Source: Sulfobacillus thermotolerans
GTDB taxonomy: Bacteria > Bacillota > Sulfobacillia > Sulfobacillales > Sulfobacillaceae
DNA: 64,000 nt
Direction: 5' to 3'
Assembly (NCBI GenBank): GCA_002951815.1
Contig: CP019454.1
Span: forward strand, 2,976,001-3,040,000
Shown here: one piece after another, positions 15,325-47,800 of the stretch
How the letters are laid out: each line of letters begins with the position of its first letter
Position numbering within the stretch: the stretch's first letter is position 1
Program-made: the position numbers and the translations under genes
The notes under the pieces: model-generated
The model's database searches: none
What the model was told of the DNA's origin: nothing
Seen by the model: only the letters and a program-made list of their open reading frames with translations

Positions 15325-15426
15325 TGATAAGCGTTCAATACGTCAAGACGATAATCCAAAAACGAACTAGTTCTTTCGAAGTGGAGCATAGTGTCACATT
15401 TCTTACATTTAAGAGGAGGGTACCGT

Positions 15427-27152: not shown

Positions 27153-27178
27153 ATTCACACCCCATTTTGAATACCAAT

Positions 27179-29687: not shown

Positions 29688-30614
29688 TTAGCGTTGGGCT
29701 TCTTTTTCACGAAAATAATGCCATGTGGCTTCTAATCCGTCCGTCAGGGGGGTAATGGGCTCAAAACCCCATAGTTTGGCCTTGTGTTGGGATAGCAAGC
29801 TATCTGTAATGTCGCCCGGACGTTTAGCCCCCACCCGGTAACTCTGTGACGAAACCCCTGCGGCTCTTGCCAGCATCTCAAACAACGCACGCACCGAAGT
29901 ACGCGTTTGGGTGCTGACGTTGTAGACCGACACAGGCCCTGGGTCGGCGAGACGATGCAAAAACGCACGGGCCACGTCCCCTACATACACGAAATCGCGC
30001 GTTTGCTCGCCATCCCCATGGATTTCAACGGTTTCGTTACGGGCTAAAGCTTCACAAAAAACAGCGACGACGCCGCCTTCGCCTTGGGTGCGTTGCCGTG
30101 GGCCGTACACGTTGGCCAAACGAAAAATAATGGCTTGCATGTGATTGAGATCCGCAAAATGCTTGACATACTGCTCAGCCGTATATTTGGACCATCCATA
30201 AAAACTGATGGGCCAAGCAGGGCCGTCTTCTCTAAGCGGCAGTTGGTCAACGTTCCCATAGACCGCAGCCGACGATGCCGTGCGAAATTGCGACGCGCCC
30301 AATGTCTTTGCTACCGCTAGCATACGCAAGGTCCCTTCCAAATTAAGGCGCAAATCGGTTAGCGGATCGCTTTCCGACGCCGCCACGCTAATTTGCGCAG
30401 CTAAATGGATGACCGCGTCCACTGGCCCCACTTGATCCACCCAAGACTCCGGCGACAAAATGTCCCCATAGACAAAGCGTGCGCCCGCAGGAACATTTTC
30501 ACGCGTGCCATGACTAAGATTATCGATCACCACAACCTCATGCCCCATCTCAAGCGCCTGAACATTAATATGCGAGCCAATAAAGCCCGCACCTCCCGTT
30601 ACAAGAATTCGCAT
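29688..30614 (-). CDS. NAD-dependent epimerase, UDP-glucose 4-epimerase-like
   Basis: An extended SDR of 308 residues. It has the NAD motif TGGAGFIGSH, HLAAQISVAASESDP, the Ser/Thr-rich SSAAVYGN, catalytic YGWSKYTAEQY, FRLANVYGPRQ, and GDGEQTRDFVYV. This pattern fits the GalE-like or WbpP-like group that interconverts C4 of UDP-hexoses; C4 epimerisation of UDP-Glc/UDP-GlcNAc is likely but the exact sugar is not resolved. ATG 30614 has TAGGAG about 8 nt upstream; an in-frame GTG at 30623 overlaps that site. It is the last gene of the 35.5-29.7 kb glycan operon. Confidence 0.88.
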   Translation of the reverse strand: MRILVTGGAGFIGSHINVQALEMGHEVVVIDNLSHGTRENVPAGARFVYGDILSPESWVDQVGPVDAVIHLAAQISVAASESDPLTDLRLNLEGTLRMLAVAKTLGASQFRTASSAAVYGNVDQLPLREDGPAWPISFYGWSKYTAEQYVKHFADLNHMQAIIFRLANVYGPRQRTQGEGGVVAVFCEALARNETVEIHGDGEQTRDFVYVGDVARAFLHRLADPGPVSVYNVSTQTRTSVRALFEMLARAAGVSSQSYRVGAKRPGDITDSLLSQHKAKLWGFEPITPLTDGLEATWHYFREKEAQR

Positions 30615-30647
30615 CGTCTTCACTCCTATTTTGAAAACATCACCCGT

Positions 30648-31748
30648 TTAGGGGACAAGGCGTTGGTATAAGCGATCATATTGCCGGGCGACTGTTTCCC
30701 AATTGAAGTCTTCGGCTCGAGCGCGGCCCCGTGCGGCCATTTTCTGCGCAAGGGCTGGAGTATCCAACACTTTATTAACGGTCTGCACCCACGCATCGAC
30801 GTCTTGCGGAGGCACAAGCAGGCCAGAATCTCCTACCACCTCAGACACGGCCGGCGTAGACCCTGCCACCACAGGAACTCCCATAGCCAATGCTTGCGCT
30901 GGAGGCATGCCAAACCCTTCATAGGTGGAAGGAAATACGAAGAGATCAGCCGTCTGGTAAAGGGCCACGACTTCCTGCCGAGTGAGGTAGGGCGTTGTCA
31001 CGACCCTTTCTTGCAAATGCAAATCGGCTATCTGATGCTGAATGGTCAGGTCCGTTTCCGCTCCAATCAATACCAATTCTCCTCCCGTATGGCGGGCAAA
31101 AACCTGTTGGCAAGCCTTAAGAAGCGTGGAGACATTTTTTCTGGGATCGTAGCCGCCTATATAAAGCAACCGTGGATGGCGCACAGGACGGTACCGGGAT
31201 GACAACCGTTCCATTTGCTCAACGGGCACGGGTCGAAAAAAATCCGGGTGCACCCCATTGGGAATGACAGTAACTCGGGCGGTCAGTTCGGGGAAGAGTT
31301 CAGCAATGTCTTGGGCAGTCGCTCGCGAAATGGCCACAATCTGACTGGCATGCGGCAAGTATTTTCGAATTTGCCCAAAGTACAAGCGTTCTTTCCACCT
31401 GGCATGATAGGCGGAAAGACGGTACGGAATCACATCATGCACCGTCACGACGGTCGGTATCGACAAGGCTACTGGTGGATACATCATGTAGGGAATGTGA
31501 AGGAGATCGACATCCTGTGGCGTTTTGATAATACTCACATTTTCCCACCACAATTTTTCCCATAAAGGCCTTTTAGGACGAGACGCCAACCCAAGACATG
31601 GTTGGTCCGGCAATAACGCCTGGCCCCGGCGTCCGACTCCCACCACACCCGTTCCCAGGCGGCTTAGCCCCCATATCAGGCCTTCGACATACTCTTCCGT
31701 CCCCGTCCGGCATTGTTCAATAATGGACACGTCCATGGCAATCTTCAT
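30648..31748 (-). CDS. Glycosyltransferase family 4 (EX7Q variant)
   Basis: A GT-B transferase of 366 residues with MKIAMDVSIIEQCRTGTEEYV at the N-terminus, TVVTVHDVIPYRL, the YIGGYDPRKNVSTLL loop, and STYEGFGMPPAQALAMG. In that motif the second glutamate of EX7E is replaced by glutamine, although the rest of the active site is intact; a few active GT4 enzymes tolerate this. The donor is unknown. ATG 31748 has only a weak ribosome site, 72 nt after the upstream GT4 stop; a GAGGGG lies 17 nt upstream. Confidence 0.87.
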   Translation of the reverse strand: MKIAMDVSIIEQCRTGTEEYVEGLIWGLSRLGTGVVGVGRRGQALLPDQPCLGLASRPKRPLWEKLWWENVSIIKTPQDVDLLHIPYMMYPPVALSIPTVVTVHDVIPYRLSAYHARWKERLYFGQIRKYLPHASQIVAISRATAQDIAELFPELTARVTVIPNGVHPDFFRPVPVEQMERLSSRYRPVRHPRLLYIGGYDPRKNVSTLLKACQQVFARHTGGELVLIGAETDLTIQHQIADLHLQERVVTTPYLTRQEVVALYQTADLFVFPSTYEGFGMPPAQALAMGVPVVAGSTPAVSEVVGDSGLLVPPQDVDAWVQTVNKVLDTPALAQKMAARGRARAEDFNWETVARQYDRLYQRLVP

Positions 31749-31820
31749 ACCAATCGGTCAAAATCCCCTCTACGCATCGTTTCGGCTATCATACCGCATC
31801 ATGAGCGCCATGGGTACTAT

Positions 31821-32909
31821 CTACCGTCCGTCCAGCGCAGTTTGGATGATCTGCGCCATGCGCGTTTCGAAAACAGCCGGACGAAACTGCTCGGTATGCT
31901 GTCTAATGGCTTGGCTGTCCCATGTAATAGTTTCGGCCCGCCGAATGGCCGCAATGACCGCATCTATCTCCTGGCGGTCAAAAAAGACGCCTGTTTTCCC
32001 GTCAATCACGGTATCTTTAACTCCGCCTTGCCCATAGGCGATCACCGGACGACCCGCGGCTTGCATTTCCACCGGGACAATGCCAAAATCCTCTTCACCC
32101 GGAAAAATTAAGCCCTTGGCCCCCGTCATCAGAGCGGACGCCTTCTCATCATCGACCGCCCCCACAAACTCCACATGACGACTGGCCAAACGCGCTAATC
32201 GCTCTCGTTCCGGACCGTCTCCGGCCACAACCAGTTTGATTCCTAACGCATTCGCGGCTTCTATCGCGAGGTCCACCCGCTTATACGCGACAAGGCGTGA
32301 GAGAACCAAATAGTAGTCCCCCGGATGGGGGGCAGGCTGAAATCGGTCAATATTGACCGGCGGAAACACAACCTCTGCGGAGCGGCGATAATGTTTGCGG
32401 ATGCGCTGCTGCACGGTATGGGAATTGGCCACCAAAACATCGGCCCTGTCGGCCGACAGGCGATCCCAAAGGCGTACATAATGAAAAACGGGGCCCATCA
32501 GCCTTCGCGTCAGGCCTTTGGCTTCACGATTATGGTAATCGTGATACAAATCCCAGGCATAGCGCATCGGCGTGTGAATATAAGACACATGCACAGTCTC
32601 CGCCCGCGTCAACACGCCTTTTGCAATCGCGGCACTCGATGAAATGACCAAATCATAGCGCGATAGGTCGAATTGCTCAAACCCATACATAAGCAACGGC
32701 AAGTAGCGATTATACCAGCGCTTGGCCCGGGGCAACCGTTGAACAAACGTTGAATAAATGGTCCGTTGTTGCAAATATGGGGAGAGGCGAGAACGATCTA
32801 ACACTCCCGTGTAAATGGGAGCATCCGGATACATATGAGCCAAGGTCTCTAAAACACGTTCGGCTCCTCCCATCGTTACCAGCCAATCGTGAACAAGAGC
32901 CACTTTCAT
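31821..32909 (-). CDS. Glycosyltransferase family 4
   Basis: A GT-B transferase of 362 residues. It begins MKVALVHDWLVTMGGAERVL, has SYIHTPMRYAWDLYHDY, LSRLVAYKRVDLAIEA, and catalytic EEDFGIVPVEMQAAG (EX7E). This is the WbaZ/WcaI-like mannosyltransferase clade (a common call is 'mannosyltransferase' by similarity), but donor specificity is inferred only from the clade. The ATG at 32909 overlaps the ligase stop (ATGA), so translation is coupled. Confidence 0.9.
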   Translation of the reverse strand: MKVALVHDWLVTMGGAERVLETLAHMYPDAPIYTGVLDRSRLSPYLQQRTIYSTFVQRLPRAKRWYNRYLPLLMYGFEQFDLSRYDLVISSSAAIAKGVLTRAETVHVSYIHTPMRYAWDLYHDYHNREAKGLTRRLMGPVFHYVRLWDRLSADRADVLVANSHTVQQRIRKHYRRSAEVVFPPVNIDRFQPAPHPGDYYLVLSRLVAYKRVDLAIEAANALGIKLVVAGDGPERERLARLASRHVEFVGAVDDEKASALMTGAKGLIFPGEEDFGIVPVEMQAAGRPVIAYGQGGVKDTVIDGKTGVFFDRQEIDAVIAAIRRAETITWDSQAIRQHTEQFRPAVFETRMAQIIQTALDGR

Positions 32910-34366
32910 GATCGATGCCTTCCGTACCGTTCCCACGCCACACTCACCGCTGCCAACGCCAAAAGCAAAGGTAGAATTACTCCTTGGTCAATAAGAAAAT
33001 CAACCCAGTTGTGAATCACGAAAGCCGTCATCGTTCCAAAGGCTCCGACCAAAAGCGCATACCAATAAGGAGACAAGGCAGCGGTTTTCTCCCGTACAAG
33101 GCGCACTGAAGACGCTAGCCACGACCATTCTAGCCACAGCGCAGCCACGATGCCGCCAATTCCCATATCCGCCCCCCACTCTAAATACAAATCATGGGCC
33201 ATAGGCGGGATGCCCGCCAATCCCTTGGGCGGATGCTGCTGAATGAAGAGATGAAAGTTACCCAATCCTACCCCTAACAGCGGATGTTGACGAATGGCAC
33301 TCAAAGCCGATTTCCAAATCAGAAGCCGTTGATCGGTATCAAAATGTCCCGCAGGATTAATCACAGCCGTAACCGTAGTTGTCAAACGTTCAAGGGTGTT
33401 TTTATGAGCCCCGACATACAAAGCCGTATGACTTAAATCGGTTTTGCCCAACAAAAAGACCACGACAAACATCACAATCGGGACGAGAATACCGAACGAT
33501 GCAAATCGCTTAAGAGCCTGACGTCCGCGTGTTAGGGCAATCAATACCCCCATAAAGAATACGCTGCCCGCATCCGCGACCCAAGAACCTCGCGAATAAG
33601 AGATAACGACGCCTAAAGCCGTCAAACCTAAAGCGACTTTCAGCCAGCCTTGACGCAGCGAGGGCGGACCTAATGCCACCAAAGCCGCTAATAACGGAAA
33701 GGTCTGGTCACTAAAGCCACCAAAAACATTGGGTTGCCCAAAAAATCCTGTCGCTCGAACATGGTGGCCGTCCACAATGTTATAAACGGGACCTAATTGC
33801 AGCATAAATTGATAGAGTCCGTAGAGAACCATGACGCTCACCACCACAAATAAGGCGGCTAAATACCAATTCCATATCGCGTTGTTGTCCCCATATTCCC
33901 GAAACACCGCCACCATGACAACAAAAAACTCGAGATATTCCAAGATTTTGATGACCGTTCCGAAATGGCTGAGACTACTGGCCAACGAAAGAATGGCCAT
34001 AATAAAGAGAAATACCAACGGCCACCGGTACGGTTGTGGAAAGAAGCGGCGCGCCAATCCCGTTATGCCTTCAACCCAGTGGTCGCGAATTAATTTCAAG
34101 GCCATGACGATCGCCATAAAATCAGCCGCATAAAATTTGTGATGATGGAAAACAATCCCTAACGGAAACGGTGCGGCCACAATGTATAAAATGGCCGCAG
34201 CAGGCAATGAGACCCATGTCATCCAAATATAGCCCACAAAAAAAATAGCAGCTCCGATGCCCCCCCAGCGCACGGCAATCAGAGCCCCCAGTAAAGCGAT
34301 TGCCAAAGACGGGAGCAGTTTCTTTGAAAAAAGCGGTTGATCACTCGACACTGCTTCGGCCTGCAT
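32906..34366 (-). CDS. O-antigen ligase/polymerase family membrane protein (WaaL/Wzy-like)
   Basis: A 486-residue protein with about twelve hydrophobic segments and one large extracellular loop between about 300 and 395, the layout of the Wzy_C/O-antigen-ligase family. The loop has the family's conserved stretch: WKSALSAIRQHPLLGVGLGNF and then MAHDLYLEWGADMG, with the catalytic-type His in HDLYLEW. Such proteins either polymerise lipid-linked repeats or transfer finished glycan to an acceptor; in Gram-positive S-layer glycan clusters they serve as ligases. Which applies here is open. ATG 34366 has GGGGAGG 7 nt upstream. Confidence 0.88.
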   Translation of the reverse strand: MQAEAVSSDQPLFSKKLLPSLAIALLGALIAVRWGGIGAAIFFVGYIWMTWVSLPAAAILYIVAAPFPLGIVFHHHKFYAADFMAIVMALKLIRDHWVEGITGLARRFFPQPYRWPLVFLFIMAILSLASSLSHFGTVIKILEYLEFFVVMVAVFREYGDNNAIWNWYLAALFVVVSVMVLYGLYQFMLQLGPVYNIVDGHHVRATGFFGQPNVFGGFSDQTFPLLAALVALGPPSLRQGWLKVALGLTALGVVISYSRGSWVADAGSVFFMGVLIALTRGRQALKRFASFGILVPIVMFVVVFLLGKTDLSHTALYVGAHKNTLERLTTTVTAVINPAGHFDTDQRLLIWKSALSAIRQHPLLGVGLGNFHLFIQQHPPKGLAGIPPMAHDLYLEWGADMGIGGIVAALWLEWSWLASSVRLVREKTAALSPYWYALLVGAFGTMTAFVIHNWVDFLIDQGVILPLLLALAAVSVAWERYGRHRS

Positions 34367-34399
34367 GATTGGTTCCTCCCCGGTATCGTCGCCCCATTA

Positions 34400-35494
34400 T
34401 TATCGTGCCACTTGTAAATAAACCGCACGTGTTTGCAAAGCCGTTTGGCTCCACGTATAAGACTTGATGTGCTCGAGCCCCTTCTGCGCCCAGATGTCGT
34501 GGTGCTCGGGATGCGTCCACAGTTGTTCCATGTGCGCTGCGATGTCTTCAACGCTTAAAGGATCGACAATCATCGCCGCGTTACCCGCAACTTCCGCCAA
34601 CGCTCCCCGATTAGAGCATATCACGGGAGCTCCCCAGCCCATCGCTTCGAGCACTGGCAATCCAAAGCCTTCATACAAGCTCGGATACACCAAGGCAATG
34701 GCATGACGATATAAGGACGCTAAGTCGTCTTCGGAAACATAATCCAAGAATCGGACCTGTTCGGCAATCCCTAACCGACTTGGCGCTTCGAGGACAGGCT
34801 CGTAAAGCCATCCTTTTTTACCCGCAATTAACAGATCCACTTGTCCCCTTAACTTCTGCTTGTCCACTAATTGGGCAAAAGCTTCAATGACGCGTTGAAA
34901 ATTTTTTCGGGGCTCAATCGTCCCCACGGCCACAAAATAGGGACGGGAATTCAAGGACATCGCAGACGGAATGCCGCGACGAATGACGCCATGCGGCACG
35001 ACCGTCACCCGCTCTCTTGGCACCTTAAGAATCTCATGAAGATCATCTGCAGTCGCTTGACTCGGTACAATAATATGATCCGCAGCACGAACCGACCATG
35101 CCAGCATTCGCCTTTTCACTTGCGACTTAGCCCACGGAAACATTTGGGGATACTTATATGCCACTAAGTCATGCACCGTTGCCACACTGTGCCGAACGCG
35201 CCTGAGCACTGGCACTTGATAATCGGGAAAATGGACCACATCATAGGACGTCTGACGCAACCACTTATGCAACTGCCACTGTTCAAACATCATCCGTTCC
35301 CGACTGTGGTGAAGATTGCCTGGCGGCACCACCATCGTCCCGCCAGGAAGCACTTGGCCCGGCAAGCCAATGGCCATCACCTGATCGACCATGGCGAATT
35401 GCGCCACATAGGCCTCCACCAGCGACGCAATATACCGTCCAATACCCGCAGACTGTGGATGATACAGTAAGGCGTCGACCACGACTTGCAGCAA
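34400..35494 (-). CDS. Glycosyltransferase family 4
   Basis: A GT-B transferase of 364 residues (373 if started at ATG 35521). It has VVVDALLYHPQSAGIGRYIASL, VHFPDYQVPVLRR, VATVHDLVAYKYP, the VGTIEPRKNFQRVIEAF loop and SLYEGFGLPVLEAMGWG (EX7E). It is first in the second glycan operon. The start is ambiguous: TTG 35494 has GGGAGG 4 nt upstream and gives a typical GT4 N-terminus, whereas ATG 35521 has no ribosome site and would sit at the predicted transcription start as a leaderless message. Confidence 0.88.
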   Translation of the reverse strand: MLQVVVDALLYHPQSAGIGRYIASLVEAYVAQFAMVDQVMAIGLPGQVLPGGTMVVPPGNLHHSRERMMFEQWQLHKWLRQTSYDVVHFPDYQVPVLRRVRHSVATVHDLVAYKYPQMFPWAKSQVKRRMLAWSVRAADHIIVPSQATADDLHEILKVPRERVTVVPHGVIRRGIPSAMSLNSRPYFVAVGTIEPRKNFQRVIEAFAQLVDKQKLRGQVDLLIAGKKGWLYEPVLEAPSRLGIAEQVRFLDYVSEDDLASLYRHAIALVYPSLYEGFGLPVLEAMGWGAPVICSNRGALAEVAGNAAMIVDPLSVEDIAAHMEQLWTHPEHHDIWAQKGLEHIKSYTWSQTALQTRAVYLQVAR

Positions 35495-35529
35495 TATCCC
35501 TCCCGTCGTCACATCCCACATTGGATTTT

Positions 35530-35769: not shown

Positions 35770-38700
35770 ATGAGACAAACCCGGGCCCGGCGCCATCGCC
35801 ATTCCCAGTTTTTACATCGTCGACCCCGTAACCGAACCGCTAATCCTGCTTTAGCCTTAATTTCCTCAGCATTGCTATTCGCGAGCTTGCCCGCGGCGGC
35901 TTATGCGCAAAGTGCTGTCGTGCTCTCCAGCTATACCCTAAATGCTGGAGATACCACGATGACCTTAACAGGTCAAGACTTTGGCTCAACCGCTGCCACG
36001 GTCACCATTGACAACCAACCTGCGCCCGTTACGAGCTGGACCCCCTCGTCCATTACTGTCAGCATTCCTGCCGATGCGGGCCCTGGCCCAATTCAAGTCA
36101 CAACCGCTCAAGGGATTGTCTCCAACGATTTGACATTTGCCGGCGTCAGCCGAGGATCGTATGCCCTCTCCAGCAATGGTACAGTTACTCCCTCTGGCAA
36201 CGTGCCCTTTTACGGAGATCTGCCGTCCATCGGCGTATCGTCTGCCTCACCGGCCGTGCAACTCATTCCGACAGCCAATTACCAGGGATACTGGATTTTG
36301 ACTCAAAACGGCCAAGTCTATGCGTTTGGCAACGCCACGCCCTTCACCTCGAACATTCCTGCTACATCCCCCGCAATTAGCATGGCGGCAACCCCTTCAG
36401 GTCAAGGCGCGTTTGTCTTAACGCAAAATGGAACGGTCTACGCCTTAGGAAATGCGCAGACGTATGGCAATGCCACAGGATCATCCCCGGTTAGCATTGC
36501 CAGTACGCCTAATGGTCTGGGTTATTGGGTTGTCAGTGCATCAGGCGTTGTCCAAAGTTTTGGTGATGCACAAAACTTTGGCAGCTTGCCGCAAACTGCA
36601 CAGCCACAAAGCACTTCCGTATCGTACCCCAATGGCACGTTACTGCGTCAAAACGGAACAAGTCCCGTTTGGGTGGTTGAAAACGGCACACTTCATCATA
36701 TTCCCAATCCGACCATCCTTTTAGGCATGGGCCTGTCTTGGAGCCAAGTGCAAGTGGTTTCCTCGTTATCCGGTCTTTCGGTAGGAGCTCCATTAGTGAC
36801 CCCCTACACGTCTGGGACATTGCTTCAACAAAATGGTCAAAGCGCCATTTATCTTGTGATGAACGGCATATTGCGCCACATTGCCAGCGCGTCGGTATTT
36901 ACGCAAATGGGCCTTTCGTGGTCCTCTGTGGTCCATGTCAATGAAATCAGCCCCAATTGGCCAATCGGCCCCGCCTTAACGGTCCCCGTCGCGTATTACC
37001 CCTCGGGCACGTTATTAAAAGCTCAGAACAATCCTGCCGTCTACATGGTCAATAATGGGACCCTGGAACACATCATGTCAGGCTCCGTGCTTTCAGCCAT
37101 GGGCTACCAATGGAGCGATATCACCGTTTTACCCACTTTACCGAATTTGCCTATCGGGCAGGATCTAACGACCCCGATGCGCGCCTTTCCCACCGGCACT
37201 TTGGTGAGACAAGCAAACGAAGCGGCCGTGTATTTGGTCCAAAACGGCACATTGCGCCATATTGTCAATCCCCAGGCGCTTTATGCCCTAGGATTTACCT
37301 TTGCTCAAGTTGTGGTCGTACCGACCCTAGAAGGGTTGCCCACCGGATCTCCCCTGGACAGCACCTCAGATCCCACGCAGGCGCCGTCTACAGCCCCTGC
37401 GGCTTCAACCAATGATCCCCCCACAGTGGTCGGCTTTACCCCGACGTCTAATGGTCAAGGGTATTGGATTTTGCAATCCAATGGCGTTGTGACAACCTTT
37501 GGCAATGCCCAAAATTTTGGCGAGCCCCCGGCGGGCACACAAGCCACACAGCTTGTCGTCAGTGTGGACCAACAAGGGTACGACGTTATCACCGCCGATG
37601 GCCAAGTTTTGACATTTGGCGATGGCCCCGCGTTAAGCGTGCCTTCGTCACCCGTTTCCGTGATTGATTCACCCATGCCAGCCAATGTCCCCGCTGCCCC
37701 CTCGGTTGCGCCCTCTGGCTTTTTATCCATGGGCTACGGGTTTTTTGTCGATAACTTCCCCAACGGCGTGAATAACTCATCGTACGAAGACTTGCTACAA
37801 CACGGCAATTCATTGTCCGCCATTAATCCCGCCTGGTTCAACTTGGCCCAAAATGCGGATGGATCGTGGCAAATTACTAGTTGGTCAACCACGGGCCCCT
37901 ATGCTGCGCCCGACATCAATGGCCTCAACAATATTCAAGTCGTCACCGCTCAGGCCCAACAAGAAGGCGTCATGGTTTTACCCTCTATTGGCAGCTATTA
38001 TAATCCCGCCAATGGGCCCATTACCACGGCGGCCGACGACGCCAACCTGGTCCAACAAATCGTCTCCCTTGTGACCCAAGATGGATTTAATGGCATCACG
38101 ATTGACTTCGAAAACAATGGATACGGAGGCTTAGGCGTCTCAGGGGCTTCAACCCAATACACGACCTTTATCCAACAGCTGGGTACAGCATTGCACGCCG
38201 TCAACAAACTGTTGATGGTCGCTGTCTATCCTTCGTCATATCCCAACACATTGTACAACTATCAAGCCATTGCTCCTTATGTCAATTACATCAATATGAT
38301 GACCTACCCTGAAGACAACTCTAGTACGTTTCCTGGTCCCACAGCTGGATTCCCTTGGGTTGAGTCCTTAGTCCAATCCGCCATAGCAGACGGCGTGAAT
38401 CCCCAGCAAATTATCTTGGGCCTAGCGCCTTATGGCCATGAATGGACGGCCACCAATCAAGGCGTGACCGGCGTCGGCGCTGTAAGCAACCGAGCCGTTC
38501 AAAGTCTTTTGCAGCAGCAAGGAATTTCCCCGTTATGGGATCCGACCCAAGATGAAATCGTCTTCACGGCGGGGCCATTAGCCCAATTGCCTCCTGCAGG
38601 GTACTCGATCGCCGATGACAATCAATCCCTGCCGCAAGTGGCCAATTTGCAAAACCTATTAAATTTCGTTCTGCTCAAATATGCGATTGACAACAATCAA

Positions 38701-39030
38701 ACGCCTCGGGCTCTCTTGCCAACTGACGGCTATTATGGGCCGCTTACCACGGCTGCAGTCACCGCTTTCCAGCAGGACTTCAATGTCCAAGGCGCCACGG
38801 CGGGCGTCTATGACACCGCCACAGCTCAAGCTTTGCAGCAGCTGATTACCCAGTGGAATATTGGCCAAGACATTTATTGGGATGAAACATCCCAGTCCAT
38901 CGCTGACCGTGTGCAACTGGCCTTGCAAAACAATTTAGGAGGCGTCGCCGCGTGGCGCTTACCCTTTGAAACCCCCGGCTACTGGACCGCTATCGGCCAG
39001 CTGACCCCTGTCGCCCACCTTCAGCCATAA
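35770..39030 (+). CDS. Secreted multidomain GH18 glycosidase with TIG, repeat and inserted peptidoglycan-binding domains
   Basis: A 1086-residue exported protein. Residues 1-47 are an Arg-rich signal peptide ending AAAYAQ; 48-125 an IPT/TIG-like beta domain; 130-275 and 550-625 contain beta-propeller-like motifs of the form GYWILTQNGQVYAFGNA; 285-530 four tandem ~60-residue repeats with GTL(L/V)..NG(T/I)LRHI cores. The GH18 catalytic domain starts near 650 (FLSMGYGFFVDNF); DGFNGITIDFE contains the likely catalytic E781, followed by NYINMMTYPED and the barrel-closing GGVAAWRLPFE near 1058. A peptidoglycan-binding_1-type unit (about 985-1028, YYGPLTTAAVTAFQQDF) interrupts this domain. It resembles YaaH/SleL-type N-acetylglucosaminidases and probably acts on its own cell wall or spore cortex. 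AGGAGG lies 11 nt before the ATG. Confidence 0.85.
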   Translation: MRQTRARRHRHSQFLHRRPRNRTANPALALISSALLFASLPAAAYAQSAVVLSSYTLNAGDTTMTLTGQDFGSTAATVTIDNQPAPVTSWTPSSITVSIPADAGPGPIQVTTAQGIVSNDLTFAGVSRGSYALSSNGTVTPSGNVPFYGDLPSIGVSSASPAVQLIPTANYQGYWILTQNGQVYAFGNATPFTSNIPATSPAISMAATPSGQGAFVLTQNGTVYALGNAQTYGNATGSSPVSIASTPNGLGYWVVSASGVVQSFGDAQNFGSLPQTAQPQSTSVSYPNGTLLRQNGTSPVWVVENGTLHHIPNPTILLGMGLSWSQVQVVSSLSGLSVGAPLVTPYTSGTLLQQNGQSAIYLVMNGILRHIASASVFTQMGLSWSSVVHVNEISPNWPIGPALTVPVAYYPSGTLLKAQNNPAVYMVNNGTLEHIMSGSVLSAMGYQWSDITVLPTLPNLPIGQDLTTPMRAFPTGTLVRQANEAAVYLVQNGTLRHIVNPQALYALGFTFAQVVVVPTLEGLPTGSPLDSTSDPTQAPSTAPAASTNDPPTVVGFTPTSNGQGYWILQSNGVVTTFGNAQNFGEPPAGTQATQLVVSVDQQGYDVITADGQVLTFGDGPALSVPSSPVSVIDSPMPANVPAAPSVAPSGFLSMGYGFFVDNFPNGVNNSSYEDLLQHGNSLSAINPAWFNLAQNADGSWQITSWSTTGPYAAPDINGLNNIQVVTAQAQQEGVMVLPSIGSYYNPANGPITTAADDANLVQQIVSLVTQDGFNGITIDFENNGYGGLGVSGASTQYTTFIQQLGTALHAVNKLLMVAVYPSSYPNTLYNYQAIAPYVNYINMMTYPEDNSSTFPGPTAGFPWVESLVQSAIADGVNPQQIILGLAPYGHEWTATNQGVTGVGAVSNRAVQSLLQQQGISPLWDPTQDEIVFTAGPLAQLPPAGYSIADDNQSLPQVANLQNLLNFVLLKYAIDNNQTPRALLPTDGYYGPLTTAAVTAFQQDFNVQGATAGVYDTATAQALQQLITQWNIGQDIYWDETSQSIADRVQLALQNNLGGVAAWRLPFETPGYWTAIGQLTPVAHLQP

Positions 39031-39090
39031 ATGGGCCAGTCATGGTATGATCGGGAAAGAACTCAATCGGTGGAAGGAATGGTGCCGTTT

Positions 39091-39732
39091 ATGAATCCTC
39101 GAAAATCTGTCAAGTGGTCTATTCTTTTGTCATTGCCCTTGGCGCTCGCAGGGTGTGGGTTTCACCACGCCGCCAGCGCCCCCAATACGTCTCGTCCTAA
39201 GACGTTGCGCCAAACGTCACCCAGTCCGTCTCCATCCCCGTCTGCGTCGCCTAGCCCATCTCAGACGCCGTCATCACCTTCGACGTCATCATCATCACCC
39301 GCAACGCAGTCTGTCCAGGCCCCGCCTCCGCCAGGCGCGGGGCCCTACACGGGGTTAAAAGTCGCGGTGGTTGCGGCCGTACCAGAAGGCACGTCAACCG
39401 TATCGGGCCAGCGGCTCAATGTCTATCGCCTCACCGTAACGGTCGATAACCCGACATCAGGGATCATTGGCTTGGCGCTCGATGACTTAGCAGTTGATGC
39501 CAATGGTGCCTCTTACGCTTGGAACGATTACGTGCAGCAAGGCCTCACGGCGTCCAATTCGCTGTTTGCCTTTCCTCTCACTCCAAAGAGCCCCGCGTCA
39601 GACGTGACTCAGATTCTACCAGGTCGCCCTTTAACGGCAGAATTGACGATCCAAGCCCCTTCTGCTTCGCAATATGTTCTCGTGTGGAATGGTACGTCCA
39701 CACCCACCGGGCCCCAGGCTACATTTCATTAA
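39091..39732 (+). CDS. Lipoprotein with Ser/Pro-rich linker, function unknown
   Basis: A 213-residue lipoprotein. From ATG 39091 the signal peptide (MNPRKSVKWSILL) ends with lipobox LAGC. A low-complexity Ser/Pro/Thr linker (about 40-85, SPSPSPSASPSPSQTP type) follows, as found in proteins that span a thick wall. The C-terminal 125 residues form a beta domain with YRLTVTVDNPTSGIIGLAL, like a small Ig-type or DUF4352-like fold; I do not assign a family. It starts 60 nt after the GH18 stop and is likely co-transcribed. ATG 39079 is an alternative but sits on the AAGGA site. Confidence 0.7.
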   Translation: MNPRKSVKWSILLSLPLALAGCGFHHAASAPNTSRPKTLRQTSPSPSPSPSASPSPSQTPSSPSTSSSSPATQSVQAPPPPGAGPYTGLKVAVVAAVPEGTSTVSGQRLNVYRLTVTVDNPTSGIIGLALDDLAVDANGASYAWNDYVQQGLTASNSLFAFPLTPKSPASDVTQILPGRPLTAELTIQAPSASQYVLVWNGTSTPTGPQATFH

Positions 39733-39762: not shown

Positions 39763-40662
39763 ATGGAAGAAAGGCTTTTAGGAAAAACCAAACAACCTGT
39801 CTCCCTGATTGGATTTGGCGCTCTAGAAGTAGGCCGCACGTGGGGATTAGGTTCGCCTCAGGACACCGAGCGACCCAACGAACAAGACGCAACGACACTG
39901 CTTCATCATGTGCTCGATTGCGGCATTACCTTAATCGACACCGCCGCCGCGTATCATGCCAGCGAGGCACGCATTGGCCAAGCGCTAACTCACCGGCGTG
40001 CGGAGTATTTTTTGGCCAGCAAATGCGGAGAGCATAACAGAGAACCCGGTACCTATTATGATTTCAGCGAAGAGGCGATTCGTACCTCGATTGACGAGTC
40101 CTTAATCCGCTTGCAAACGTCCCAAATCGATTTAATGCAAATTCATTTCGGCCCCGATCCCACCCGCGTATTACGCGAAGGATTTACGGTCAAAGCCATG
40201 CGAGATGCTCGCGAGAAAGGGCTCGTACGCTTCTTGGGCGCCTCGTGCGAACCAGATATTGTCCCTGCCATTATCTCGCTCCAAGATTTCGATGCCATCC
40301 AGTTAACCTACAACCTCTTGGACCGCCAAGCCGAAGACGCCATCAAACGCGCTGCGGATAACGAGTTGGGCGTCATGATTCGCTTTCCCTTAGCTATGGG
40401 CTTTTTAACCCCCAAACGCCACGCAATATCCCAAGACTCTCCTAAAGCGCAATGGGCGGCCCAATATTTGCAAATCGCCCATAATGACGATGCCCTCTTG
40501 ATTGCGCTGGCATTGCAATTTATCGCCCGCATGCCAGAAGTCTCATCGATTCTTGTGGGAACCAAAAATCCTGTGCACTTGGATACAGCCATTCAAGCCC
40601 TGACGGTGCCGCTTCCTTCAGGCATGCTAGATGAGGCCATACGCCTTAAAGCGACGGTCTAG
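39763..40662 (+). CDS. Aldo/keto reductase family oxidoreductase
   Basis: A 299-residue (beta/alpha)8 NADP(H) oxidoreductase. The sequence has LIGFGALEVGRTWG, the catalytic Asp in TLIDTAAAYHASEARIG (Asp...Tyr), the lysine in FLASKCGEH, and the strand DLMQIHFG where the His sits. The SILVGTKNPVHLDTAI segment binds the NADP phosphate side. It belongs to the broad AKR11/13-like group; the substrate is unknown. ATG 39763 has GAGGAG 8 nt upstream. Its stop shares the tetranucleotide CTAG with that of the convergent gene 40659-41720. Confidence 0.87.
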   Translation: MEERLLGKTKQPVSLIGFGALEVGRTWGLGSPQDTERPNEQDATTLLHHVLDCGITLIDTAAAYHASEARIGQALTHRRAEYFLASKCGEHNREPGTYYDFSEEAIRTSIDESLIRLQTSQIDLMQIHFGPDPTRVLREGFTVKAMRDAREKGLVRFLGASCEPDIVPAIISLQDFDAIQLTYNLLDRQAEDAIKRAADNELGVMIRFPLAMGFLTPKRHAISQDSPKAQWAAQYLQIAHNDDALLIALALQFIARMPEVSSILVGTKNPVHLDTAIQALTVPLPSGMLDEAIRLKATV

Positions 40663-41720
40663 GCCTTCTCGCATAGGCGGTCTAGGTCAGCTAAGACGCT
40701 TTGGGCGCGGTGATCCCAGCTGTGGGCTTGATGTACTGCGTCGTAGGCATGCATGCTCAGCTCCTGCCGATATTGAGGAGACGATATGACAGCTATGAGC
40801 GCTGCGGCCAGCGCGCGAGCATTGGCTGCTGCATGAATTCCGACGCGGTAGCGCTCCACAAATCGCGCAGCTTCCGAACGATCCGTCACGACAACCGGAA
40901 TACCATAAGAGAGATAGTCCATCAACTTCACGGGCCACGCTAACCGGGTATACGCCGTATCAGGTCGCGGGATCACGGCTACGGCAGCCTTTTCATACCA
41001 TGGCAAAAGCGAGGGCCCTGCCGCTTCTGTCACGGTGATATACTCAGGAATCCTAGCTTGTGGCCATTCTGCACGCCGCATTATCAATGCCAACCGTGCT
41101 TCAGGGCATTGCCGATGAACGTGCCCCATCGCCTCGATTAATAACTCTACCCCATCGTACGGGCCCCCAGCGCCGACATAGAGAATCCACGGGGCTGAGG
41201 CAGTCTCATGGTGCCGTAAGGAAACAGGTGTCACGGCCCCTGGTGGCAATAGACGGACTTGAGCAGATCCTTTAGGCAGCAAATCGCCCAAGCCCTGGGT
41301 GGGGACATAAAGAATGTCGGCCCAAGCCCCATACGCCCGTAAAGTCAGCCCATAGAGTAGTGCCATTATGTAGGATTTCGCACCGTGCAAGGGATAGAGA
41401 TCAGGAAATTTTTGGTAATAGTCGCGCACAAATACCGCTACCGGCAGGTTTTTTTGCGCAGCATGGCGTAAAAACAGAAGGTCGCGGACCGTCGCCGTAG
41501 AACTCGCACTTTCCACGTACACGGCGTCTACCGCTTTCAAGAGGTTGTGACGCCATGCTTCCGTTAACCATGGCCCACGTTGACGGCGTGTCCCTGTAAT
41601 TAGCGTGACCTGAACATGCCGCGCAAAGGCCTCTGCCATTCGGTAAATGCGCACTTTGGGGGCGCGGTCCAAGGCATCAAGGGGATAATGGCCCACCATC
41701 AGCAAATGCTTTATCGTCAT
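40659..41720 (-). CDS. Divergent glycosyltransferase family 4 protein
   Basis: A 353-residue GT-B protein. The fold pattern is clear (HLLMVGHYPLDALDRAPKVRIYRMAEAF, PWILYVGAGGPYDGVELLIEAM, AAVAVIPRPDTAYTRLAWPVKLMDYLSYG), but the usual EX7E is replaced by a WPVKLMDYLSYGIP pattern seen in GT4 enzymes with a Lys-x-x-(E/D) site. The donor is unknown. The ATG at 41720 overlaps the stop of the next gene upstream (ATGA), so the two GT genes form a coupled pair. Confidence 0.8.
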   Translation of the reverse strand: MTIKHLLMVGHYPLDALDRAPKVRIYRMAEAFARHVQVTLITGTRRQRGPWLTEAWRHNLLKAVDAVYVESASSTATVRDLLFLRHAAQKNLPVAVFVRDYYQKFPDLYPLHGAKSYIMALLYGLTLRAYGAWADILYVPTQGLGDLLPKGSAQVRLLPPGAVTPVSLRHHETASAPWILYVGAGGPYDGVELLIEAMGHVHRQCPEARLALIMRRAEWPQARIPEYITVTEAAGPSLLPWYEKAAVAVIPRPDTAYTRLAWPVKLMDYLSYGIPVVVTDRSEAARFVERYRVGIHAAANARALAAALIAVISSPQYRQELSMHAYDAVHQAHSWDHRAQSVLADLDRLCEKA

Positions 41721-42958
41721 ACGTCGCTACCAGGCTCAAAACTTTTCAGCCACTTCTCCGCGATCCGTTGCCATGTATAGTGGTCTCGTACAAAGCTCCA
41801 CCCGGCTTGTCCCATTGCGGTCCAAGCATCCTCAGGCATATCCGCCAGCTGCAAGACGGCTTTCGCTAACGCGTCCCCATTTTCGGGCTCGGCGACGACG
41901 CCCCCCTTAGCCCGGTGAATAAGATCAGCCATTTCCCCCTCGCCCACATAAATGACGGGCACCTGGGCCGACCATGCCGGAAAGACTTTAGAAGGCCTTG
42001 CCCCCTTAAACAACGAGTGGCGGCGAAGCGGCACCACAACAGCCCGTGCTAAACTGAAATAAGCGGGCATGTTCTCGACCGGCTGCAATGCCTCAAACCA
42101 CACATTGGTCAACTGGGCTGCCTTGACCTGTTCCATTAAATGAGCTTTTACAGGGCCGTCCCCAACCAGCAAAAAGGCGATATCCGTGCGGTCCCGAAGC
42201 CGCTTGGCTGCTTCAATAATGACGTCCAAGCCTTGGGCATAGCCCATGGTCCCCGGGTAGAGAAACACCTTTTCAGTCCCCTTACCCCACCTTGCACGCA
42301 ACGCGGTGGGCATCTCGACGCGTGGAAACTGGGCTAAATCCACCCCATTTGGAAAAAAGAGCACGCGCTCTGGAGGAATTTGCCCTGTTTCGCGAATGGT
42401 TTGTTGAATGCCCTCCGTGACCGCAGAGACATAGGCGGCATGAGCATACAACGACAACTCCAATCGCCTTGTTAGGCCGACAAGCCAAGGATTGCGCACC
42501 AATCCCAAGGCGACTGCCGATTCTGGCCACAAATCCGATACTGACAAGATATAAGGAACCTTAAACCAGCGTGAATACAGCCGCGCAGTCATCCCTAAAA
42601 ACAACGGGGGCGATTCCACTAAAAGATAGTCGGGACGCGGCAGTTTACGCAAGCCCCCAAAACTTGTCACCACAAAGGAAAAATAATTCAGCAATCGCCA
42701 CCAAAACCGTCTATTGGGGGGCACGCGCCAGATCCATGTCCGAATCACAGGAATTCCTTGCACGATTTCTTGCACGTGAAACACAAAACGTCTGGAACCA
42801 GACGCCCCTAAATGGTGGGGCATTGCTGTCACCACCGAGACATGATGACCTTGACGCATCAATTCATGCGCCATGGCCTGCAACCGTATGGATGCCGCTC
42901 CGGGCTCAGGCGGGTAATATTGCGTTAAAAAAATAAAATGCCGTCCGCGCTGCGCCAA
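41717..42958 (-). CDS. Glycosyltransferase family 4, WbuB-like
   Basis: A 413-residue GT-B transferase of the WbuB/WcaI type: FIFLTQYYPPEPGAASIRLQAMAHELMRQG at the N-terminus, YLLVESPPLFLGMTA, VSDLWPESAVALGL, FLYPGTMGYAQGLDVIIEA, and GARPSKVFPAWSAQVPVIY where this clade keeps PSK in place of EGFG. WbuB transfers fucosamine-type sugars in E. coli O26; donor here is unknown. TTG 42958 is preferred because GGAGGAG lies 7 nt upstream; the frame is open to 42976. Confidence 0.85.
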   Translation of the reverse strand: MAQRGRHFIFLTQYYPPEPGAASIRLQAMAHELMRQGHHVSVVTAMPHHLGASGSRRFVFHVQEIVQGIPVIRTWIWRVPPNRRFWWRLLNYFSFVVTSFGGLRKLPRPDYLLVESPPLFLGMTARLYSRWFKVPYILSVSDLWPESAVALGLVRNPWLVGLTRRLELSLYAHAAYVSAVTEGIQQTIRETGQIPPERVLFFPNGVDLAQFPRVEMPTALRARWGKGTEKVFLYPGTMGYAQGLDVIIEAAKRLRDRTDIAFLLVGDGPVKAHLMEQVKAAQLTNVWFEALQPVENMPAYFSLARAVVVPLRRHSLFKGARPSKVFPAWSAQVPVIYVGEGEMADLIHRAKGGVVAEPENGDALAKAVLQLADMPEDAWTAMGQAGWSFVRDHYTWQRIAEKWLKSFEPGSDV

Positions 42959-43047
42959 TGTGTCTCCTCCGCACAATAATATTTGGTCTATTCATCATAC
43001 CTGAATTAACGTCATTCTCCCATGGCTCATCCCTAAAATGGGCACGC

Positions 43048-43118: not shown

Positions 43119-45020
43119 TTACTTCGTCAGCAAATAACCAACATAATCTAAGAGTTCTTGCGCACAGTGATCACAATAGCCCATGTCTTCAATGAGACGG
43201 CGCTTGACTTCCATCACACGATTCTTCTGTTGGTCATTCAACACTTTCGTCGACGTCGTCACTTTGACTAAATTCGCCACATCGGCAAATAGCTTCTTTT
43301 CGATCGCTTCTTTCATCTTGGGGTGTGAATCCCAACTCAGCGATTGGCCCCTGCGAGCCATGGCTCCCGATTTATTCACCATTTCCTGGCGAAAGGCGGT
43401 CGCTGCTGCGTCGCTGATCCCCAATGCCTTTTCCAAGTCTTGCAAGATCTTTTCGTTCGGCTCGACTTCTTCCCCGGTTACCGGATCTTTCACCGTCGTG
43501 TGCATAATCCGTGCCTCGGCATGCTCGAGATAGTTATCATAAAGCAATTGCGCCGCATCTTGAAATGAATCGACAAAAGCCCGCTGAATTTCATTTTTAG
43601 CAGCTTCGTCATATAACTCATGGGTCGCCTTCAACGCTTCAAGCAGATCCTGGTTCTTGACTTGAGTGATATGCTGTTCAAAGCTTTCGCGAATTGCGCG
43701 CAACATAGCTGTCGGTGTCACACACACATCTTTGTCACTCGCCATGGCGTACGACAAGGCGTCCAAAATGTGCCGCGGCGAGATGCCTTGAAATCCCTCT
43801 CCTTGCTTACGCGCAAGTTCCCGCACCCGATTGATTTCCCGCTGCTGCACATCAGGCAGTTCTTTGCCATCGTACAGCGTGAGCTTTTCTTTGACGGAGA
43901 ATTTGGCATCGCGGCTTAGGCGGGTACCAACGCCAAACATCGCTGCCACTTTCAACGTATTAGGCGCAATATGCTTGCCTAAATCAGCCCCTGTCAAGTT
44001 CATCATTTTCTGGTATGTCCGCATTTCCTGACTCACGGTCAGATTATACGGCACCTTGATCAACAAGACCCGGTTATGCAAGGCCTCATACGCTTTGTTA
44101 CTAACAAACCGCTCAAACTCGTTTTCGTTAGTATGCGCAATAATGGCTTCATCGGCATCAAACAGACCAAACCGTCCTACCTTGATCTTCCGCTCTTGCG
44201 CCAAAGTCAACAGCCCATGCAGGAAATCAGGCTGGGCTTTTAACATTTCAATGAACTCCATAATGCCCCGGTTCGCCGCATTAAAGGCTCCATCAAAACG
44301 GTACGCCCGAGGATCTGATTCCGAACCATAGCGAGAAATGGTCGACAGATCCATGGATCCCACCAGTTCACTGATATCTTGCACCTTGCTGTCGGAGGGG
44401 GCAAACGTGCCAATGCCAATCCGGCGGGATTCCGAAATTAACACTCTTTTAACCGGCACTTCTTGCAAACGCCCTTGATATTCGTGATCCACCATCCACT
44501 GGCAATAGGGACAGAGGTCGCCTTCGATGCTCACCCCCGTCGCCTGCATAAATTCCCGGCGCGCCGCCTCAGGCAGCAAATGTAACGGTTCTTCCTGCTG
44601 GGGACAGAAGGAGATAGCAAATAAGGCGCCCGCATCCGTCCGCGAATATTCTTCCATGCCTTTTTTAAGAATGGCGGTAATGGTAGACTTCCCTGTGCCA
44701 GGACTTCCCATCATCAACAAGATTCGGCGGCGAATGTCCATGCCGCGGGCCGCTGCGGCAAAGTACTCGACGATTTCATTTATCGTGTCATCAATCCCAA
44801 AAAGCTCTTGACTGAAAAATAGATACCGGGGTGTCTCCTGATTTTCCGGCTTTTCGACTCCATGAGACATAATCATGCGATAGATGCGGGCATGGGCGAG
44901 ATCAGCGATGGAAGGAGTCTCTTGCACCTTTTGAAGGTAGTCGGCAAATGTTCCTTCCCATGTCCATGCCCCCGCCGGGGGTTGGTGCAGGCTAAGCCAT
45001 CCCGTATCAAACTGTGCCAT
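43119..45020 (-). CDS. prkA: PrkA-type AAA+ protein (serine protein kinase family)
   Basis: A 633-residue cytoplasmic protein with the PrkA AAA+ domain at the N-terminus (Walker A GSPGTGKST at 105-113) and the PrkA C-terminal domain. Typical segments are LCPYCQWMVDHEYQGRL, ESRRIGIGTFAPSDSKVQDISELVGS, NRGIMEFIEMLKAQPDFLHGLL and NENEFERF. In Bacillus PrkA is linked to sporulation, with kinase and, more recently, protease activity reported. ATG 45020 follows the spoVR stop by one base. It is the last gene of the yhbH-spoVR-prkA operon. Confidence 0.95.
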   Translation of the reverse strand: MAQFDTGWLSLHQPPAGAWTWEGTFADYLQKVQETPSIADLAHARIYRMIMSHGVEKPENQETPRYLFFSQELFGIDDTINEIVEYFAAAARGMDIRRRILLMMGSPGTGKSTITAILKKGMEEYSRTDAGALFAISFCPQQEEPLHLLPEAARREFMQATGVSIEGDLCPYCQWMVDHEYQGRLQEVPVKRVLISESRRIGIGTFAPSDSKVQDISELVGSMDLSTISRYGSESDPRAYRFDGAFNAANRGIMEFIEMLKAQPDFLHGLLTLAQERKIKVGRFGLFDADEAIIAHTNENEFERFVSNKAYEALHNRVLLIKVPYNLTVSQEMRTYQKMMNLTGADLGKHIAPNTLKVAAMFGVGTRLSRDAKFSVKEKLTLYDGKELPDVQQREINRVRELARKQGEGFQGISPRHILDALSYAMASDKDVCVTPTAMLRAIRESFEQHITQVKNQDLLEALKATHELYDEAAKNEIQRAFVDSFQDAAQLLYDNYLEHAEARIMHTTVKDPVTGEEVEPNEKILQDLEKALGISDAAATAFRQEMVNKSGAMARRGQSLSWDSHPKMKEAIEKKLFADVANLVKVTTSTKVLNDQQKNRVMEVKRRLIEDMGYCDHCAQELLDYVGYLLTK

Positions 45021-45021
45021 A

Positions 45022-46365
45022 TCAATCCCTCCTTCTCCAATCTGCTTCGTTGCCGTACCAGATTTTGTGTAGGCTCGTAAGCATCACGTCGCCGCCCCAC
45101 AAATAGGCAATGGCATTGAGGACGTCCTGGGTATATTCCTTGTGCAACGGCTTCTCGCCATGATACACAAGATCGAGGCGATGGTTTTGTGCATCAATCT
45201 GCTCGACAAAAATTTCTGGTGTGTCCGGCATAAAAGCCTTTTGCACGTCGCGAGCGAGATCTTGGGCCGGATAATATTCCATGCCCTTGGACGGGTCATT
45301 GGGATCGCGCGGCCGTTCTAGCGGCCAAACATTGCGGTCTTGGGCCAACTTCACGAGGTCTGGAGTAATCCATTGATTGACCCATTGCTGGTCCGTTTGG
45401 TCCTCCACAATTTGAAAACATGTCGCTAAGCCGTGCATCTCCGCAATGAGTTCCCACAAGGTCCATCCGAAATAATAGGGATTAAAGAAATGATGGCTTT
45501 GGGTCACCAACGCATGCATCCGCATAGCCTCAATATGGTCTTGTTCGTCCCAAAGGGAGAACTCTCGCGTCAGCCGCACGTGCCAAAATGTCGCCCAGCC
45601 TTCGTTCATATACTTCGTTTGCGCTTGAGGCTGAAAGTAAAGCATTTCTTCGCGCAACATGCGTAATGCCATCCGTTCCTCTTCGCCTAAGTGGCCTAAA
45701 TCCGCGACAATAGCCAAGACGTCCTGCGTTGCAGGCCACATCTTATATCGCGGAATATAGCTGCTGTCATCTTCCGTATCCGGTGGTTCCTCGTCGTAGA
45801 GCTGCTTGACCCAGTCAAATGAGGGAGAACGCACAGGCGAAGCTGGCGGCATGGTCTGCAATTCGGGCGCTCGGTAATAAGGGTCTACGAGTTGACTTAG
45901 GGTATGCGCCGCATCAATCAGTTTCTCCACCCGGGAAAAACTGCGTTGACGATGCAAATTTTCCAGCCACTCGGCATGTTCGCGAAACCACATGCCCACA
46001 TTGGTCCTCCGAACACGGCTAAGATGCCGATTTCGTGCAAAGAAGTCCGTGTGTCCTAAGACATGACCGATCACTAAGACGTTATAGGCATCCGCGTTTT
46101 TGTCCAATAGATAGGCTAACGCCGGGTCTCCGTTAACAACCAGCTCATAAATGCGTCCCATGCCTTGCTCATCGCGCTGCTTGGCGATCCAGTACCGTTC
46201 CCCATGCGTCCAATGCCGATAACGTCCCGGCACAAAATACGAGGACAACGTATAAATGTCTTCATCGGACACCATGTGAAATTCAGTCGGCAAAGGTTGC
46301 AGCTGGTGCGTATGCACGAGCTGATCCATCTCTGCGACCCAGTCTTCAAGGGTTCCGTGGACCAT
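45022..46365 (-). CDS. spoVR: SpoVR family protein
   Basis: A 447-residue cytoplasmic protein of the SpoVR/YcgB family. Characteristic features are YFVPGRYRHWTHGERYW, VLVIGHVLGHTDFFARN, EEMLYFQPQAQTKYMNEGWATFWH and a FNPYYFGWTLWE segment. SpoVR is needed for normal spore cortex formation in Bacillus; molecular activity is not established. ATG 46365 has GGAGGTG 6 nt upstream; the in-frame GTG at 46374 is part of that site. It sits between yhbH and prkA, a linkage conserved in many bacteria. Confidence 0.95.
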   Translation of the reverse strand: MVHGTLEDWVAEMDQLVHTHQLQPLPTEFHMVSDEDIYTLSSYFVPGRYRHWTHGERYWIAKQRDEQGMGRIYELVVNGDPALAYLLDKNADAYNVLVIGHVLGHTDFFARNRHLSRVRRTNVGMWFREHAEWLENLHRQRSFSRVEKLIDAAHTLSQLVDPYYRAPELQTMPPASPVRSPSFDWVKQLYDEEPPDTEDDSSYIPRYKMWPATQDVLAIVADLGHLGEEERMALRMLREEMLYFQPQAQTKYMNEGWATFWHVRLTREFSLWDEQDHIEAMRMHALVTQSHHFFNPYYFGWTLWELIAEMHGLATCFQIVEDQTDQQWVNQWITPDLVKLAQDRNVWPLERPRDPNDPSKGMEYYPAQDLARDVQKAFMPDTPEIFVEQIDAQNHRLDLVYHGEKPLHKEYTQDVLNAIAYLWGGDVMLTSLHKIWYGNEADWRRRD

Positions 46366-46403
46366 TGCACTCACCTCCAGGTCCTGCAGACGGTCATCGC
46401 GCG

Positions 46404-47450
46404 CTATTGTAGACGGTTTTTCTCATCAATGACCATACGAATGGCGGGAAGAATGTGATCTTTGTGGTCAATTTTGGCCATTCTCATGGCCGGGTGAAAA
46501 TGCCCTTGGTACTCGGCACTTTTGCGAAAGAGAGACCAAAGAGGGGAAACCCCTTTATGGCCTTCGACTTCAAAGTACCCCAAAATAGACGACGTCGCCA
46601 AAATCGCCTGAATCGTCTCGATTAATTCCCGGCCATAATCGGACCAGATATCGCCATCCGAAAAGTGCAACAAATACCGGTTCCAATCATCATGGGGAAA
46701 CTCATCGTCCCATAACTGCAAGATTGTCTGATACGTGGAGAGGATTGCTGTACCGCCCGTAATTTCACGGTTGAAAAAATCCTTTTCGTCAACCGCTACA
46801 GGCGTTGTGGTATGCAAAAAATACCGTATTTCGGCGTGCTGATATTGTCTGCGAATCCATTGCACGAGCCACCACGCCGCCGACTTGGACAAATAGCGCT
46901 TCGACTCATCCATAGACCCCGAGGCATCACGCACTAACGTAATCACGGCAGACGTAATCGGTTTGGGATAGGTTTTCCAACTTCGGTAACGCAAGTCATC
47001 TTCTTGAAGGTAGTCTCGGCCCGCCTTAGCCGCCTCGTACAAGCTGCGGCGCTTGTCAATATTCGCCCACGGTCCATGGGTCGTGACATCGTCATAACGG
47101 TCTTCTTCGCCATGTAATACGCCCCGAGGTTTATCTTCCAACCGCGGCAATTTTAGGTCATCCAGCAATAAGTCCATAATTTCTTCTGTGGTCAGCTCAA
47201 TCCATACCACGTCTTCGCCACCATCATTGCCAGGCCCCGTTCCCTTCCCCTGGCCCTGTCCTGTCGGAGGTTGGTAGCGGAAATCCGGTTCTTCTAGCTT
47301 CCTAACCGCGATACGGATACGCTGATCGGGAGCGCTGCCCATGACTGCCTCTTGTGTGATCAATTCCGGCAGTTTTGCCTTGATAGCTTGGTTGAGTTTA
47401 CGCAAATACCACTGACGATCGAGCTCGCCTTTCTGATCATAAAGATTCAT
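46404..47450 (-). CDS. yhbH: YhbH/YeaH family protein (DUF444, von Willebrand A-like)
   Basis: A 348-residue protein of DUF444. A Gly/Gln/Pro-rich stretch (about 63-80) precedes VVWIELTTEEIMDLLLDDLKLPRL; a VWA-like core follows with the metal-site pattern VRDASGSMDESKR (D-x-S-x-S), and ends VIDEKN. YhbH is a sporulation/stress protein of unknown activity that travels with PrkA and SpoVR. ATG 47450 has GGAGGG 6-7 nt upstream; ATG 47456 and longer forms are less likely. It is the first gene of its operon. Confidence 0.94.
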   Translation of the reverse strand: MNLYDQKGELDRQWYLRKLNQAIKAKLPELITQEAVMGSAPDQRIRIAVRKLEEPDFRYQPPTGQGQGKGTGPGNDGGEDVVWIELTTEEIMDLLLDDLKLPRLEDKPRGVLHGEEDRYDDVTTHGPWANIDKRRSLYEAAKAGRDYLQEDDLRYRSWKTYPKPITSAVITLVRDASGSMDESKRYLSKSAAWWLVQWIRRQYQHAEIRYFLHTTTPVAVDEKDFFNREITGGTAILSTYQTILQLWDDEFPHDDWNRYLLHFSDGDIWSDYGRELIETIQAILATSSILGYFEVEGHKGVSPLWSLFRKSAEYQGHFHPAMRMAKIDHKDHILPAIRMVIDEKNRLQ

Positions 47451-47800
47451 GGTCATCCCTCCGTTCACGGGAACAGAAACAGAGACCGGCAAAGTAAAGG
47501 AAAGAGGAATTTCACGAGGGAAGGTGCTACAGGTTGCTTACAGTATACCATACTATTAATAATTCCGACAGTTCGAAATCGGAATTCAGCCTCCCGCCCA
47601 AAGGTTGATTACCTGCGCTTTGGCCCCATCCTTCTAGCTGCGAGCTTCCTCCCTTTAATATATCGGAAGCGTGGCTTGTATTAGAATGCCTGTGCAAAGA
47701 TAAATGTCACAACAGTGCCTGAGCCCATGCACATCGGGGCCAACACAACCATAGCGTGCAAAAAGATCTTGTTGACCGTTTTCGAAAGAAGGTGCTTGTC
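47451..47800. other. Intergenic region upstream of yhbH
   Basis: This 350-base gap separates yhbH (minus) from the small membrane protein gene (plus). It contains a minus-strand TATACT -10-like box (47547-47542) and a perfect 8-bp dyad (47561-47586) immediately upstream of it. The rest shows nothing I can name. Confidence 0.5.
47561..47586. promoter_or_regulatory. Inverted repeat at the yhbH-spoVR-prkA promoter
   Basis: AATTCCGA (47561-47568) and TCGGAATT (47579-47586) form a perfect dyad with a 10-bp spacer that contains the palindrome TTCGAA. It overlaps the region expected for the -35 box of the TATACT promoter, so it looks like an operator. Confidence 0.5.

Follow-up and report, generated by a model that had tools for sequence, protein, structure and literature searches.

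SleL (YaaH) and YdhD are GH18 enzymes that carry LysM domains. Together with three other solved chains (4wiw, 4q6t, and 5jh8), SleL (4s3k) and YdhD (3cz8) are the nearest solved relatives of the GH18 protein described here. All five share with it the GH18 core with a small insertion domain, a TxDFE- or NxDFE-type motif, and a closing G-A-W motif. Unlike the present protein, however, they have an insertion-domain hairpin without any inserted domain, and the LysM domains of SleL and YdhD have no counterpart in it according to Pfam. Another difference concerns strand β6, where the Tyr-Asp pair is mostly kept by the insert-free GH18s that we compared but is lost in the present protein.

In subfamily A GH18 chitinases, the chitinase insertion domain (CID) follows strand 7, precedes helix 7, and forms the wall of the cleft (PMC2805709). 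The insertion domain of the present protein occupies the same position, but, unlike the CID, its hairpin carries a whole extra domain. ChiW of Paenibacillus is likewise a large GH18 surface protein built of multiple modules, and insertion subdomains lie at its cleft, whereas a peptidoglycan-binding (PG_binding) domain is not mentioned in the sections of that report drawn on here (PMC5132251). A paralogue from the same genus (L075) possesses the same two domain types as the present protein; its PG_binding_1 domains are N-terminal and in tandem with an uninterrupted GH18 domain, whereas the two are nested in the protein of Sulfobacillus thermotolerans analyzed here. The gene is located in a 64,000-nucleotide stretch of contig CP019454.1 (hereafter, the window), to which all coordinates refer.

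Results

Domain organization of the GH18 protein

The open reading frame at 35770–39030 on the forward strand encodes a GH18 protein of 1086 amino acids, whose closest named relatives in a close-relative scan of genome contigs were from Sulfobacillus genomes. A probable Sec signal peptide ending with AAAYAQS was read from the sequence at residues about 1–47 (35770–35910), followed by a TIG domain at residues 59–123 (35944–36138; PF01833, E = 1.6e-9). In the C-terminal half, a single Pfam match to Glyco_hydro_18 (PF00704) extended over residues 681–1064 with an E-value of 4e-26 and 92.8 bits, against a curated cut-off of 29.6. On the basis of the Pfam and PDB matches, the first part of the GH18 domain comprises residues 655–936 (37732–38577) and extends through β7 to include the first hairpin strand of the insertion domain. 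It includes the catalytic DFE at 779–781 (38104–38112), where Thr777 takes the place of the first Asp of the DxDxE motif, and the β6 sequence MMTYP at 843–847 (38296–38310), where the usual Asp after Tyr is replaced by Pro. An inserted segment with linkers follows at residues about 937–1034 (38578–38871), as delimited by alignment with insert-free GH18s and 5jh8, and contains a PG_binding_1 domain at residues 955–1022 (38632–38835; PF01471, E = 1.1e-8, 35.6 bits against a curated cut-off of 23). The second part of the GH18 domain, residues 1035–1080 (38872–39009), was assigned by Pfam and PDB profile alignment and consists of the return strand, helix 7, and the closing strand GGVAAW.

An earlier, sequence-only reading of the window had described a SleL-type GH18 with a TIG domain. 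The GH18 and TIG assignments were borne out by the Pfam matches, and SleL and YdhD are among the nearest solved relatives. The landmarks that it had listed, namely DFE (779–781), MMTYPED (843), PLWD (921), YWDETS (1036), and GGVAAW (1057), were found at those positions. On the other hand, its description of the enzyme as wall-anchored was not supported for this protein, since Pfam detected no CWB2, SLH, LysM, or sortase signal at an E-value of 1 or better and no hydrophobic tail was present at the C-terminus of the sequence; CWB2 occurred only in divergent sister members.

The front half was analyzed using a unit HMM, which gave a PPPP-HHHH-PP pattern in the window protein and in most relatives of its type. 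Six propeller-type (P) units are therefore split 4+2 around four H units, in agreement with the propeller-like region and the four repeated units proposed previously. Propeller units 1–4 were located by the unit HMM and AlphaFold strands at residues about 127–275 (36148–36594), where pLDDT was mostly above 80, and units 5–6 were located in the same manner at residues about 562–625 (37453–37644). Between units 4 and 5, the four H units occupy residues about 286–545 (36625–37404). They are of the GTLLRQNG..VWVVENGTLHHI type and showed no named Pfam or NCBIfam match above the cut-off. Their nested position was also indicated by H-less relatives: the six P units are uninterrupted in L050, and L061 has six P units and no H. 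GH18 paralogues of 740–812 amino acids have HHHH alone, without the propeller. For the front half, AlphaFold gave a model with a mean pLDDT of 72.9 and strands in all six P units, and a Foldseek search with it listed propellers, but with low TM-scores. A four-unit H domain thus appears to interrupt a six-unit propeller between its units 4 and 5, as a second nesting. The sequence-only reading had contained neither this nesting nor the partner lipoprotein, polysaccharide locus, and active-site change described below.

Position of the PG_binding_1 domain

The PG_binding_1 domain lies inside the one continuous GH18 match, as had been proposed from the sequence. We compared this region with insert-free GH18s. 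L075 of the same genus and L076 and L078 of the same class have a hairpin of only a few residues at the insert site and then continue with return strand, helix, and closing strand as in the window protein. Solved structures aligned in the same way: in 5jh8, the family profile advances from position 259 to 356 whereas the chain advances only from residue 263 to 268, and the alignment of 4q6t likewise picks up again after the insert. Furthermore, the insert site was identical in all insert-bearing relatives compared and the PG_binding core residues were invariant among them, indicating that the nesting is more than chance. These alignments support the placement of PG_binding_1 within the GH18 domain.

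Structure prediction and a search for the same inserted arrangement had been suggested as checks. The AlphaFold run of the catalytic half, which used six sequences, gave a mean pLDDT of 59.9, with values below 50 for the last 55 residues, and did not show a closed barrel. The PG_binding part was the more confident region of this model, and Foldseek retrieved GH18 structures with the model despite its weakness. As the prediction neither supports nor refutes the nesting, the claim rests on homology. The search recovered 56 sequences with a PG_binding insert, all at the same GH18 site.

Of the 42 genomes of the order, 37 contained an essentially full-length match to a profile of the nested region; in G033 the match started at position 23 due to a contig end. 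The five genomes without the arrangement were G016, G019, G020, G030, and G036, and completeness was 87% for G020 and 63% for G030. No end-to-end match was obtained in the 112 other genomes of the class, three of which matched the GH18 tail alone. In a sample of 299 genomes from the phylum, such matches were found solely in the two members of the order, and plasmid and phage collections gave zero matches. Beyond the phylum, the search comprised these collections and the close-relative scan of genome contigs, and hence the arrangement could exist elsewhere. No publication on a GH18 with a nested PG_binding domain was found in a literature search that covered few subscription journals. Within the genomes and collections searched, the arrangement is so far seen in this order only. 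The design had previously been called unusual; this is true beyond the order, whereas the nested GH18 is the norm within it. One copy, at G012:C3:29488-30074, is divided between two short open reading frames of 142 and 154 amino acids and is possibly a broken gene.

In a tree inferred from 84 GH18 cores after removal of the insert columns, one change explained the insert, with a weak branch support of 67. A single origin is the simplest reading of these sequences, although not proven, and the insert is apparently old.

Neighboring genes

A gene encoding a putative lipoprotein with the lipobox LAGC was identified directly 3' of the GH18 gene from its sequence and from homologues of neighboring genes (forward strand, frame 39031–39732, likely start 39091). 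The lipoprotein has a Ser/Pro-rich linker followed by a conserved C-terminal domain, and the window copy showed no Pfam match above the cut-off. Homologues of it were located next to a GH18 gene at about 33 loci. Among these are the loci of most of the main lineage, of the 740–812 amino acid paralogues, and of representatives of a second family within the order. No homologue was found beside the members of 640–660 amino acids or those bearing CWB2, some of which have little downstream sequence.

The pair is flanked by a conserved polysaccharide locus on the reverse strand, with genes for an epimerase, two glycosyltransferases (GTs), Wzy_C, and another GT on the left (29688–35521) and two GT genes on the right (40659–42976). 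The order epimerase-GT-GT-Wzy-GT-[GH18-lipoprotein]-GT-GT was conserved across several genera of the family. In genera g1, g2, g3, g5, g6, and g11, the pair is located among the conserved GT and Wzy genes, and the epimerase gene is present where the stretch reaches that far. A bacterial sugar transferase (PF02397) at 25749–27158 is a likely priming enzyme of the polysaccharide locus nearby. PrkA, SpoVR, and DUF444 genes are arranged in a row at 43119–47492 and also occur near the locus in several relatives. Elsewhere in the window, a sulphur oxygenase reductase gene at 15391–16347 (PF07682, E = 2.8e-141) fits a sulphur-oxidising acidophile.

Active site

Asp779, Glu781, Tyr846, and Trp1062 were invariant in all 56 insert-bearing rows of the alignment. 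In contrast, the residue after the β6 Tyr, which is Asp in 26 and Asn in 2 of the 28 insert-free rows, was never Asp in the insert-bearing rows (Pro in 41, Gly in 10, Ser in 4, and Glu in 1); in the window GH18, Tyr846 is kept and Pro847 replaces Asp. This Asp is a usual GH18 trait, neither defining the family nor needed for a family match. Judging from the aligned residues, the insert clade has lost it. Considering that the catalytic residues are invariant and the β6 Asp is lost, the enzymes of the clade are probably active but differently tuned. Acid adaptation was considered as the cause of the loss but set aside, because the Asp is retained in insert-free GH18s encoded by the genome from which the window comes.

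Discussion

We infer from these data a secreted YdhD/SleL-like GH18 glycosidase with a wall-glycan clamp, a spacer arm, and a lipoprotein partner, a joint reading that we consider to have about an even chance of being correct. The nesting and its conservation, the intact catalytic Asp and Glu, the gene pair, and the locus are evident from the sequences, whereas secretion, catalysis, the substrate, binding by the insert, and the role of the lipoprotein are deduced from them. The enzyme would cut an N-acetylhexosamine-containing glycan, most likely peptidoglycan. Since the insertion domain forms the cleft wall in GH18 chitinases (PMC2805709), the PG_binding domain should project from this wall, with its exact placement deduced by analogy; at the tip of the hairpin, it may clamp the wall polymer next to the active site. 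The TIG domain and the propeller/H-repeat front half would serve as an exchangeable spacer or adhesion arm. The lipoprotein may cooperate with the GH18 at the membrane, and both would act while the surface polysaccharide of the surrounding locus is built or released. The CWB2 domains of sister members and the N-terminal PG_binding domains of the insert-free paralogue L075 support a role at the wall. Against this reading count the loss of the β6 Asp in the whole insert clade, by which activity may be altered, the failure to find the lipoprotein gene beside the 640–660 amino acid and CWB2 members in the available stretches, and the weak model of the catalytic half. The polysaccharide-synthesis locus also favors a substrate other than peptidoglycan.

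Indeed, the position of the pair within a Wzy/GT locus means that the substrate may be either wall glycan or the polysaccharide of the locus. It is possible, if somewhat unlikely, that the GH18 acts on the latter, by trimming it or by transglycosylating it onto peptidoglycan held by the nested domain. The gene order conserved across several genera speaks for such a substrate, as do the Wzy and GT genes in the vicinity of the pair in a single genome of the second family. However, no Wzy-locus genes were present around the GH18 genes of L131, L134, L135, L141, and L146 in the stretches examined, and GH18 catalysis requires an N-acetyl sugar where the chain is cleaved.

The clamp itself could be questioned, because the conserved residues of the insert mainly resemble fold-core residues and the PG_binding score falls below the Pfam cut-off in some members (L051, L058, and L061). 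The nested fold might then no longer bind peptidoglycan and merely raise or stiffen the cleft wall. We consider this unlikely, as the order as a whole retains the PG_binding fold signature and PG_binding or CWB2 domains are also present in other surface proteins of these bacteria.

That the whole insert clade is catalytically impaired and plays a lectin or scaffold role would agree with the complete absence of the β6 Asp from its members, but seems distinctly improbable, because invariance of Asp779, Glu781, Tyr846, and Trp1062 is unexpected for a dead enzyme. An even bolder combination, in which peptidoglycan held by the nested domain serves as acceptor and not as substrate, and the GH18 with altered β6, together with the lipoprotein, transglycosylates the locus polysaccharide onto the wall, is in our view very improbable; if true, surface polysaccharide would be attached by a route that has so far gone unrecognised. 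Finally, a PG_binding domain outside a barrel that closes before it is hardly tenable: the AlphaFold model lacks a closed barrel, but both the solved chains and the insert-free GH18s align with the return strand, helix 7, and the closing strand on the C-terminal side of the insert, and Trp1062, also C-terminal of the insert, is invariant.

The nested GH18 offers a clear natural case in which a binding domain forms part of the catalytic cleft wall itself instead of being appended next to it, and the insert-free paralogues of the same genomes are ready controls. Together, the loss of the β6 Asp, the lipoprotein partner, and the polysaccharide locus pose a question on cell-surface construction in acid-living Sulfobacillales that can be put to the test.
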